A stretch of DNA of 64,000 bases from assembly GCF_000687145.1 (NCBI RefSeq), contig NZ_JMFG01000025.1, positions 1 through 64,000 of the forward strand, given 5' to 3'. Source of the DNA: Thermoanaerobaculum aquaticum (GTDB lineage: Bacteria > Acidobacteriota > Thermoanaerobaculia > Thermoanaerobaculales > Thermoanaerobaculaceae). Within the stretch, counting starts at the first letter, position 1, and each line of letters begins with the position of its first letter. A program made the translations under genes and the position numbers. The notes beneath the pieces are model-generated. The model ran no database searches. It was not told the DNA's origin and worked only from the letters and a program-made list of their open reading frames with translations. Of this stretch, positions 60,682 through 64,000 are shown piece by piece.

Positions 60682-60883
60682 ACAGCACTCAATGGCGGCC
60701 AAAACCGCCGGAGGTTAGGCCTCTTGGTCGCTGCCCGTGCGGGAGGGCCGGGTCATGCCCTTGCCCGTTCGCGTTCAGGCAAACCCGTTTTCTCGCCGCC
60801 TGGCAGTTCTTTTGTCTTGCGCACACAAGAATACTTGCGAGGACCACGGCATCTGCGGCCGGTGTTTGCCCGGGGGGCGGGTG
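60682..60883 (+). other. Spacer between speB and the phase-variable locus
   Basis: A GGCGG-CCAAAA-CCGCC hairpin (60694-60709) follows speB but has no T-tract. A short Cys-rich frame (60737-60997) has no convincing start and crosses the repeat; I do not accept it as a gene. Confidence 0.4.
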
Positions 60884-60913
60884 TTGACAACTGGCGGTGG
60901 GCTGTGGTTTATT
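60884..60913 (+). promoter_or_regulatory. Promoter of the phase-variable gene
   Basis: TTGACA (60884-60889), 18-nt spacer, TTTATT (60908-60913). A transcript would begin about 17 nt before ATG 60936. GGAGGAG (60927-60933) is the ribosome site. Confidence 0.55.
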
Positions 60914-60935
60914 TGCCGGCGACAATGGAGGAGCG

Positions 60936-61251
60936 ATGGTTTTGAAGAGATTCCTTCCTTCCTTCCTTCCTTCCTTCCTTCCTTCCTTCCTTCCTAGCTG
61001 TTTGTAGTGTCACTTTCGTTGCAAGTTTAAGCCTTCCGGTGCGGGTGTGGGCGCAAGCGTGTGCGCCGCCTGCCTCGTGTGGTTTTGTGGATAGTTTGGA
61101 CTTTTCCTCCACAGGCTTTCAGGAAAAGGCGGTGGAAGCTTGCCGGCTGGGGCTTTTGCCTGGCTGCGGGAGCAGTACTGAGGAAGTGTTCTTTTGCCCC
61201 GGGGAGCCCACGACCCGAGCGCGGGTGTGGCGTGGCCTTCGCTTTGCGTAA
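60936..61251 (+). CDS. Phase-variable secreted Cys-rich protein, frame OFF in this copy
   Basis: ATG 60936 (after GGAGGAG) reads MVLKR then FLPS repeats encoded by the TTCC tract, and hits TAG at 61005 with 11 units. In the +1 frame the sequence after the tract is open from 60997 to TAA 61249. Ten (or thirteen) units would join both parts into about 103 (or 107) residues: a basic start, a long hydrophobic FLPS core, AVCSVTFVASLSL and an AQA signal-peptidase site just before a Cys-rich mature part of about 60 residues. A joined product with such a good signal peptide supports a real switch gene. The mature part has no known family. Confidence 0.65.
60951..60995 (+). repeat. TTCC tetranucleotide tract, 11 copies plus T
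   Basis: Eleven uninterrupted TTCC units (60951-60994) and one extra T. Such tracts gain or lose units by strand slippage during replication, shifting the downstream frame by 1 nt each time. It lies inside the signal-peptide coding part of 60936-61251. Confidence 0.95.
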
Positions 61252-61289
61252 GTCACGTTAACTTCTCGTGTTCGTCAACGGGAGGCGAA

Positions 61290-61328
61290 ATGAATCGGCG
61301 AACTAAAGACATGCCGAAGGACTTTTGA
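61290..61328 (+). CDS. 12-codon leader ORF before the secreted protein gene
   Basis: ATG 61290 follows GGGAGG (61280-61285) and encodes 12 residues (MNRRTKDMPKDF). Its TGA stop (61326-61328) overlaps the GAGGAGG ribosome site of the next gene. A ribosome finishing it would load on ATG 61339, so it may couple or tune translation. It could also be chance. Confidence 0.4.
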   Translation: MNRRTKDMPKDF

Positions 61329-61338
61329 GGAGGCAGCC

Positions 61339-61959
61339 ATGAATTTTAAAAGGCTTTCTTTCAAGGTGTTTCTGATGGCCGTGTTGCCGCTGCTTTTTGG
61401 AAAAGGCGTGAGCTGGGCGCTTTCGATTCAAATCTCGGGTCACACCGTGGAGGTATCCGGTCTCAAACCCGGGGCGGAGGTGGCGATTATCGGGTGTAGC
61501 TACAGTCAGGAGGGGCTATTTCCCAGAGTGCGCGCGATTGAAGCGCACGTGCAAGCGGATGGGGCAAGTGGGGTTGCCCGACTCAGTTTGCCGGAGGAAT
61601 TGCCGGTCATGACCGTTGTAGGGGCTGTGGATTTGCTCACAGGTGAGGTGGGGGTAGGGGCGCACCCTGATTACCCGTACACGCTTTGGAAAGGCCCCGC
61701 TGACCAGCCGTTGCCCACAAGCCCTGGGCGTGCAGGTATCGTGATTCCTCGGGTTCGGCAAGGGCGCGTGCTGTGGGTGCGTCCCGGGGTTGCTGGGTTT
61801 GTGGCTTCGATAGTTGGGTCCGATCGCGAGGTCCCTTTGAATCGTTTTCGCGGAATTTCCCGGCAGGAACCGGTGCCCTCAGTACTGCAAAGAGGCGATG
61901 TGATTCTCGGCTTCGACCAAGAACGGTTGGAATTTTGGGTGTTCACGGTGGGGAGGTAA
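61339..61959 (+). CDS. Secreted protein upstream of an RHS gene, unknown function
   Basis: 206 residues with a clear signal peptide (LSFKVFLMAVLPLLFGKGVSWA). The mature protein is rich in short beta strands (IQISGHTVEVSGLKPGAEVAI). Five-residue spacing and strong GAGGAGG site support ATG 61339. The RHS-type gene starts 6 nt after its stop, so the two are cotranscribed and this protein may assist RHS secretion or protect against it. No family recognised. Confidence 0.7.
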   Translation: MNFKRLSFKVFLMAVLPLLFGKGVSWALSIQISGHTVEVSGLKPGAEVAIIGCSYSQEGLFPRVRAIEAHVQADGASGVARLSLPEELPVMTVVGAVDLLTGEVGVGAHPDYPYTLWKGPADQPLPTSPGRAGIVIPRVRQGRVLWVRPGVAGFVASIVGSDREVPLNRFRGISRQEPVPSVLQRGDVILGFDQERLEFWVFTVGR

Positions 61960-61965
61960 AAAACG

Positions 61966-64000
61966 ATGCGCAAGGTTTTTGCTGCAAATTTGACCTTCTT
62001 GCTTTTTGTCGTTGCTGCCTTTGCCCAGCACCCCAACCTTCAGGTGGGTTTTAAACCGGAGCAAGCGTACCAGGTGGGAGAAATTGACAGCGTTGATCTG
62101 TTCAATGGCACAGTAAGCCTCCAAATCCCTATTGGCCAATCCTACCCTTTGAATGCGGGCATGAGCTATGGGCTTTCGGTGTCCTACAACAGTAAAGTTT
62201 GGGAGTACGGCATTCAAATCTTTTCCACTTGTCAGCCGCCTTACGATGACGTGAGCGTCCCCCAAGCTTTTCCTTCGAGGCGCTCCAACGCGGGATTGGG
62301 GTTTCGGCTCTCGTTGGGAGACCTTAACCCGCCCTGGACCTCAAGAAATGCGTGGGCTCAGTGGGTCTATGTGAGTCCTGACGGTGCTGAGCACCGTTTT
62401 TACCAGACCTTGTTGCCAAGCGAAACCGACACCGACGCTACGGTTTGGTACACCCGGGATAATTCGTACCTTCGGTTAAAGCTTTCTAATCCAGCCACCT
62501 GCAACAACAACCTTACCTATCAAACGGCGGTGGTGGAATTTCCCGACGGCTCGCGACACACGTTTGAGACAGTAAGCACGTGCAGTTCCACGTACCTTTT
62601 GCGCAAAATTGAGGGGCCCTTCCGTGACGGCTCGGGAAACCCCACCAACTGGGTCGCTATCAACTATGCGCCGGTGGGATCCGCGGAACCGACCCAATGG
62701 ACGATCAGTGACAGTCACGGACGAACGCACACCGTGACGCTGAGTTACCTTCAAGGGGTTACGGAGTTGGGTCCCCAGGTGAGTCAAGTCCAGCTGCAAG
62801 CGTTTGGTGGACAAGTGGCGACCTACACGTTCTCGTACACGGTGGTGAGCAACCTCTTGCGGTCCGGAAAGCACCAATACACCGCGTACTGCCAGGAGTG
62901 CTTCCGAAACCAGGACGCTCCGCCAAACATCGTGGCGGTACCCTTGCTCCAAAGTATTTCCCTACCCGATGGCTCGAGCTGGTCGTTTACCGATGCTAAT
63001 GGTAGCCTCGGATACAACATTCTCACCGGGACCCTGAGTTCCTGTGTCTTCCCGAGCGGAACGCCAAAGGACATACCAGGTACCCTTACGACCTTCACGC
63101 TCCCCACCTTGGGGCGGATCACATACCAGTACGGTGAATGGCAAAACCCCTCGGGAAGCGTTAACTGCTACGATCGTACTGAGGAATTAGCGCTAGTTCA
63201 GAAATTCTTGGGTGTCACGAGCCGTACGTTTACGAACACTTTTTCCGACCTAGGCGGAACAGTCGCAACCGCAGTGTGGACGTACTCCCACGACGCGCCA
63301 CGGCTTGCCAACGGTGACGTGGATGATAACGCCCAAGAGTCCTGGACAGTCGTGACGGACCCCAACGGGAACAAAACGAAGCACTATTTCCGCACCAAGT
63401 ACTGCCTTGGCTCGGACGGTTCCGGGTGGGATTACGCCTTACCGTACACACGCGGGCGAAATGGGGAGTTGACGACGCCCCCTTTCCCCTCGGTGGAGTA
63501 TTACCAAGGGAACACTTTGGTGCGAAGCGTGGCCGTGGAATACGAGAAGGACACCTTAACGCTTTTCAACGGTGCGCCGCCAGCTTTCGAAAGCTTGTGG
63601 CACGACTCGAACCGCCGGGTGAAGACGCGGCGAATCACCTACCACGACGATGGGAATCGCTTTGTTCTGACCACCTTCAGCGAATACGATGGCCTCGGTC
63701 ACTACCGCCGGGTAAACACCAGCACGAACATACCCACCTCTGGGCTCAGTCGCACGCAAGTTACAAACTACAACTCCGCTGGTAGACCTGCGGAAAGCGC
63801 ACCTTGGATCTTAACGACGTTTCTGGATCAGTCGGTAGAAGAAATCATAGGTGGGCAAACCAAACGGGCCCTTCAGGAATTTTGCTTTGATCCGCAAACG
63901 GGGTTCTTGCAACGGGTGCGGGTTTTAAGCGCCGATTCTGGGGTTCGCAGTGCCAATGACGTGATTCGCGTATATGCGCGGGATACCTTTGGCAACACGA
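61966..64000 (+). CDS. RHS/YD-repeat-type secreted protein, N-terminal part (3' truncated by window)
   Basis: ATG 61966 follows GGGAGG and the frame stays open to the right edge (678 codons). A signal peptide (NLTFLLFVVAAFAQ) precedes a region where FNGTVSLQIPIG and GLGFRLSLGDL match the start of RHS-like proteins. Later, beta-hairpin repeats such as SEYDGLGHYRRV and NYNSAGRPAES look like early YD repeats. RHS proteins form large shells that enclose C-terminal toxins, or serve as cell-surface proteins. The toxin or shell part lies beyond the window. Confidence 0.82.
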   Translation, partial: MRKVFAANLTFLLFVVAAFAQHPNLQVGFKPEQAYQVGEIDSVDLFNGTVSLQIPIGQSYPLNAGMSYGLSVSYNSKVWEYGIQIFSTCQPPYDDVSVPQAFPSRRSNAGLGFRLSLGDLNPPWTSRNAWAQWVYVSPDGAEHRFYQTLLPSETDTDATVWYTRDNSYLRLKLSNPATCNNNLTYQTAVVEFPDGSRHTFETVSTCSSTYLLRKIEGPFRDGSGNPTNWVAINYAPVGSAEPTQWTISDSHGRTHTVTLSYLQGVTELGPQVSQVQLQAFGGQVATYTFSYTVVSNLLRSGKHQYTAYCQECFRNQDAPPNIVAVPLLQSISLPDGSSWSFTDANGSLGYNILTGTLSSCVFPSGTPKDIPGTLTTFTLPTLGRITYQYGEWQNPSGSVNCYDRTEELALVQKFLGVTSRTFTNTFSDLGGTVATAVWTYSHDAPRLANGDVDDNAQESWTVVTDPNGNKTKHYFRTKYCLGSDGSGWDYALPYTRGRNGELTTPPFPSVEYYQGNTLVRSVAVEYEKDTLTLFNGAPPAFESLWHDSNRRVKTRRITYHDDGNRFVLTTFSEYDGLGHYRRVNTSTNIPTSGLSRTQVTNYNSAGRPAESAPWILTTFLDQSVEEIIGGQTKRALQEFCFDPQTGFLQRVRVLSADSGVRSANDVIRVYARDTFGNT

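Follow-up and report, generated by a model that had tools for sequence, protein, structure and literature searches.

A TTCC repeat tract as candidate phase-variation switch in the leader of a predicted secreted SLH-domain protein at an RHS locus of Thermoanaerobaculum aquaticum

In a stretch of 64,000 nucleotides on contig C25 of the Thermoanaerobaculum aquaticum MP-01 genome (2,660,928 bases in 68 contigs), in the following termed the window, the first codons of a small predicted gene contain 11 perfect TTCC units which separate its start codon from an otherwise open frame encoding an SLH-like domain. The locus is probably an Opa- or AutB-like case of translational phase variation, in which a gene of an RHS locus, coding for a secreted SLH protein, is switched and was captured by the assembly in its OFF state. 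Such a switch had been proposed in an earlier reading made from the letters of the window (the sequence-only reading), and this interpretation is supported, as its frame logic proved to be exact and independent evidence favors a genuine switch. The strongest support is independent of the window itself, namely the recurrence of comparable tracts in other Acidobacteriota.

The TTCC tract and the frames before and behind it

The tract comprises 44 bp (60951–60994), in agreement with the 11 units counted after ATG 60936 in the sequence-only reading, plus one additional T, and starts 12 nt past this ATG. Tandem Repeats Finder reports it at 60951–60995 with a score of 90, compared to 54 for the next best repeat of the window. 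A pattern search covering all 2.66 Mb found four or more TTCC units at this sole place of the genome. In a general simple sequence repeat (SSR) scan considering all unit lengths and covering 1.25 of the 2.66 Mb, the tract was the only repeat above modest thresholds besides two 9-base homopolymers. A run of this length is far beyond chance, with an expected number of (TTCC)11 per genome of about 1e-19 and longest tetranucleotide tracts of only 3–4 units in 10 simulated genomes. The tract, long and perfect and with a unit that is not a multiple of three, is located within a 5' coding region. Two further frames across the tract were rejected as genes, a minus-strand open reading frame (ORF) with KEGR repeats (60909–61112), which is merely the reverse reading of the tract, and a frame starting at the upstream GTG 60737, which overlaps the tract and has nothing supporting it.

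With the 11 units as assembled, translation from the ATG, which is preceded by the ribosome-binding motif GGAGGAG, gives a product of 23 aa (MVLKRFLPSFLPSFLPSFLPSCL) ending at TAG 61005, while the frame behind the tract is open over 84 codons plus TAA up to 61251. In silico translation with varied unit numbers joins both frames at 10 units (103 aa) and 13 units (107 aa), whereas 8, 9, 11, 12, and 14 units result in peptides of 17–27 aa. Gain or loss of units is thus predicted to decide whether the product is truncated or complete. The ribosome site, the stop of the 11-unit frame, the open frame downstream and the joining by removal of one or addition of two units had all been described in the sequence-only reading and are correct. 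Its suggestion of a promoter-like TTGACA is correct as to the hexamer, whereas a consensus scan yielded no sigma-70-type promoter.

The leader of the joined product has a basic n-region (K4/R5), a core in which FLAVCSVTFVASLSL follows the FLPS repeats, and ends in VWAQA followed by CAPP, leaving a mature part of 63 aa with 5 Cys residues, in line with the signal peptide with AQA cleavage site and Cys-rich mature protein originally envisaged. The FLPS repeats, described in the sequence-only reading as forming the hydrophobic core, make up part of it. The best 12-residue hydropathy is 2.23 for the joined leader versus 1.05 for the 11-unit OFF peptide and approaches the leader peaks of the companion (2.57) and RHS (2.74) proteins encoded downstream. 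As judged by motif and hydropathy only, the tract is accordingly placed within the sequence coding for the signal peptide of a predicted exported protein.

It is highly improbable that the number of units was misassembled and the gene is simply ON with a true count of 10 or 13. The genome was obtained by CLC short-read assembly from 2x150 MiSeq reads trimmed to >100 bp, as described in PMC4056298, and tandem repeats are error-prone. However, the 44-bp tract fits within these reads, so that the consensus should be countable, and a tract with either of these two counts would remain a switch candidate. We likewise hardly expect that some joined protein arises by programmed frameshifting or transcriptional slippage without any change in the DNA. 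Both frames overlap through the entire tract and, consequently, one slip anywhere would join them, but tetranucleotide tracts are described as classic DNA-slippage substrates (PMC11868660, PMC5118866) and other tract-bearing RHS genes (see below) are in frame as assembled. In addition, a recoding stimulator was not identified, albeit no in-depth search was made.

The SLH-like domain, its genomic setting and the possibility of gene decay

As judged from homology, the mature part is a divergent single SLH domain below Pfam detection. It matches C-terminal SLH domains from other genomes of the same order, and one of these domains, when tested, passes Pfam SLH. Moreover, an SLH profile made from such relatives without the window sequence, when searched against open frames from 16 loci, recovers the window domain at an E-value of 5.6e-4, linking it to accepted SLH domains. 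Positions F, D, G, G, C, C, P, and R (F-D, G, GC, CP, R) are invariant across 15 aligned sequences, and a profile search with this alignment leads to S-layer SLH domains of solved structure. Matches to Pfam Neocarzinostat and DiSB-ORF2 were discarded as sub-cut-off noise. In two other genomes (L025 in G017, L026 in G023), similar secreted proteins, each with one terminal SLH domain, are encoded in tandem arrays.

Gene order in a relative of the same family (G009) agrees with this assignment. A 274-aa gene with predicted signal peptide and three SLH domains stands there directly before homologues of the companion and RHS genes and, because of this identical position, an SLH gene heading the companion–RHS set is a natural arrangement. 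Compared to the three domains in G009, the window gene keeps one. At this locus (L029, 2158–2982, minus strand), only about 20 and 10 bases separate the G009 genes, which form an apparent SLH(3)–companion–RHS operon and may represent a distinct gene set.

Table 1. Features of the TTCC tract locus in the window.
Feature	Position	Strand	Basis
Shine-Dalgarno-like GGAGGAG ahead of start codon	60927..60933	+	Sequence
Assembled frame (OFF), ATG to TAG, 23 aa, MVLKRFLPSFLPSFLPSFLPSCL	60936..61007	+	Frame translation
(TTCC)11 tract, FLPS-repeat coding, part of predicted signal-peptide hydrophobic core	60951..60994	+	Perfect repeat, frame and chance analysis
Downstream frame, 84 codons + TAA: predicted signal-peptide remainder, AQA cleavage motif, single divergent SLH domain	60997..61251	+	Translation and homology
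SLH-like domain (FVDS...GFQ...GLLPGC...FFCPGEPTTRARVW), approximate limits	61073..61236	+	SLH profile E 5.6e-4; BLASTP 3e-5 to G009 SLH protein
Companion gene, 206 aa	61339..61959	+	N-terminus resembling a signal peptide; RHS genes as partners in other genomes as well
RHS/YD-repeat protein gene, 1146 aa in all	61966..64000, continues past window	+	Own signal-peptide-like N-terminus; PF05593 1.6e-11

In the window, the tract had been placed next to an RHS gene, and an RHS gene is indeed nearby, but not directly adjacent, as the companion gene intervenes (Table 1). The RHS repeats score above the PF05593 cut-off (44.7 bits, E 1.6e-11), and a YD repeat is also seen. Upstream of the tract, a pyruvoyl arginine decarboxylase and an arginase-family (agmatinase-type) protein are encoded. 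Judged by the latter gene, the closest named contig belongs to an uncultured Thermoanaerobaculum (83% identity). The MP-01 genome contains a second companion–RHS locus (G000:C5 112,400–115,892; L016 and L024), which has neither an SLH gene nor a tract alongside.

Several observations weigh against a functional switch. In the scans mentioned above (1.25 Mb for general SSRs, whole genome for TTCC), MP-01 does not show a second comparable tract. Pfam makes no SLH (PF00395) call on the window frame, its score staying below the family cut-off, and the AlphaFold model of the domain, calculated with the 15-row alignment, is weak (mean confidence score, pLDDT, of 62) and too weak for a fold search. 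GC contents at codon positions 1/2/3 of the downstream frame are 0.61/0.61/0.60 versus 0.66/0.46/0.70 in the window genes, and its coding score is only -0.8, though the best of the six frames. Homologues with a joined frame, which the sequence-only reading had suggested as a check, were not found among 2 congeners, 60 relatives, and 396 Acidobacteriota genomes. A protein match in G150 overlaps a stop and an unrelated protein and was taken as chance, and a DNA search with the whole locus against 40 relatives returned the self match only. In the congener G002 (L022, compared with window positions 60682–61965), the alignment stops at the stop codon of the arginase-family gene and is followed by RHS 3' fragments only. 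The RHS island that follows the arginase-family gene is thus variable.

The main rival explanation builds on these findings and assumes a decaying gene, in which a larger SLH gene of the RHS island has been cut to one domain and an expanding microsatellite broke the frame, the tract being unstable but without adaptive role. We consider this unlikely, though it stays a live rival because of the lacking close homologue and the flat codon-position composition. The single divergent domain left in place of the three in G009 would be explained by decay, as would the flat codon statistics, and RHS islands turn over quickly, the congener retaining just RHS fragments at this site. On the other hand, no stop interrupts the 84 codons, which have retained the residues specific to SLH domains, the Shine-Dalgarno motif and start codon are intact, and a signal peptide is plausible for the ON leader. 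Furthermore, the same tract placement recurs in intact RHS genes for proteins of 2100–2200 aa from other lineages.

Tetranucleotide tracts at RHS loci of other Acidobacteriota

A search for (TTCC)≥6 in 396 Acidobacteriota genomes, made irrespective of gene context but anchored on a preceding non-C base and for that reason missing some tracts, revealed three occurrences, the one of the window and two in G208. All three are located in signal-peptide-like leaders, 12–18 nt after the ATG. The two G208 genes (L190 and L191) have similar starts, one with (TTCC)7 in frame and encoding a predicted secreted protein of at least 519 aa, the other with (TTCC)6 out of frame. For the latter, no single unit number yields both a good signal peptide and a long frame, and this gene may be mosaic or degenerate.

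A scan for start-proximal tracts added G309, where (TTCC)5 forms the predicted signal-peptide core of a 2180-aa RHS protein (PF05593, DUF6531). Homologues of this gene, collected by protein similarity alone, bear (TTCC)7 in G515, (TTTC)10 in G490, and (TTTC)6 in G518 at the same place. In these genes of family f55, all four tracts are in frame as assembled and in the predicted signal-peptide core, and a change by one or two units would truncate each of the genes, which encode 2100–2200 aa (137 aa in G518). Unit numbers (5, 6, 7, and 10) as well as the units themselves thus differ between related RHS tracts across species, and the finding of TTCC and TTTC at the same position of homologous genes suggests that instability, not the exact sequence, is maintained.

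In RHS homologues of G342 and G500, tracts of (TTCC)8, (TTCC)9, (TACC)12, and (TTCC)6 are found upstream of the start. At L205, L210, and L222 of these genomes, they lie inside short ORFs unfused to RHS and may represent either a promoter-spacing switch or a leader ORF. The context of the upstream tracts is partly shared, several showing TGATGGGC..., the tract and then GCGGCG...AGCGCC.

Altogether, eight tetranucleotide tracts with at least 4 units are present in 397 kb from six genomes, one at each RHS 5' end (8/8) and none elsewhere. Seven of these eight loci were found by protein homology without using the tract, and for these seven the probability would be of the order of 1e-14 if tracts fell at random. 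Two further homologous RHS loci (L197 and L198) show no tetranucleotide tract and neither do the companion/RHS loci examined from the window's own class; the association between tract and RHS is therefore not universal. Nevertheless, it appears somewhat likely that RHS loci of free-living Acidobacteriota, including a hot-spring anaerobe, constitute a recurrent tetranucleotide contingency class, in which TTCC, TTTC, or TACC tracts in the signal-peptide core or upstream switch RHS or RHS-associated secreted proteins. These results suggest that free-living Acidobacteriota make use of a repeat switching best known from host-adapted pathogens.

Proposed switch and comparison with known systems

In the phase-variation scheme favored here, slipped-strand mispairing would add or remove TTCC units within the first codons of a gene that encodes a small secreted SLH-domain protein and heads an SLH–companion–RHS gene set. 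Tracts of 10 or 13 units (3n+1) would place signal peptide and SLH domain in one frame and allow export of the protein (ON), while at other numbers translation would end after 17–27 residues (OFF), the latter corresponding to the assembly consensus of 11 units. As the unit has 4 nt and the tract forms much of the signal-peptide core, changes by three units would keep both frame and function. Steps of one or two units would switch the protein off, a 4-base unit coding for FLPS (or FLSF) providing a simple slipping core. In the ON state, the product would probably be associated with the envelope, next to the surface protein of the RHS type, and the OFF state may also reduce expression of the downstream genes by polarity.

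If this is true, the presence of a tetranucleotide switch in an acidobacterium that lives freely in hot springs, together with the parallel RHS tracts in distant relatives, would be a direct counter-example to host dependence as driver of such systems. Hosts and immunity are unlikely to play a role here and, therefore, phage, predation, or contact-dependent competition might be the selective force acting on surface RHS and SLH proteins. The switch is amenable to experimental testing, as T. aquaticum MP-01 is in culture.

Phase variation by SSRs is known from several phyla and not only from host-adapted proteobacteria, a restriction implied in the sequence-only reading. Its other statement, that no case is described for this type of organism, is in line with the literature searched (mainly titles and abstracts, hence no proof of novelty), where SSR phase variation in Acidobacteriota, SSR-switched RHS proteins, and phase-variable SLH proteins are unreported. 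In the passages found of a paper on SSRs in B. mallei, no rhs tract is described.

Regarding the proteins involved, the locus encodes a member of the RHS/YD-repeat family (PF05593), and the switched product resembles SLH proteins (PF00395, e.g., the S-layer protein Sap), but would have just one divergent domain below Pfam detection. Concerning the mechanism, the TAAA tract upstream of the nadA promoter in N. meningitidis, as described in PMC2791445, is a possible model for the upstream TTCC and TACC tracts of G342 and G500, whereas the window locus differs from NadA in its arrangement and in being translational instead of transcriptional. With the Neisseria Opa system, as outlined in PMC3960869, it shares a pyrimidine-only repeat coding for part of the leader peptide and, in the proposed scheme, frame switching by slipped strands. 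Opa is distinguished by the CTCTT pentamer, by its outer-membrane beta-barrel proteins in a multi-copy family, and by a measured switching of about 1e-3 per cell per generation (PMC3960869). The closest system is represented by the autotransporters AutB (and AutA) of Neisseria and Haemophilus, with AAGC repeats in the region coding for the signal sequence (PMC5118866). As in AutB, which is often found OFF (PMC5118866), a tetranucleotide tract just past the start codon, where the signal peptide of a secreted protein is encoded, would determine ON and OFF by frame, but here the unit is TTCC, the protein belongs to the SLH type and is not an autotransporter, and the organism is not a host-adapted proteobacterium but a free-living thermophilic acidobacterium, described as a strictly anaerobic hot-spring isolate (PMC4056298).
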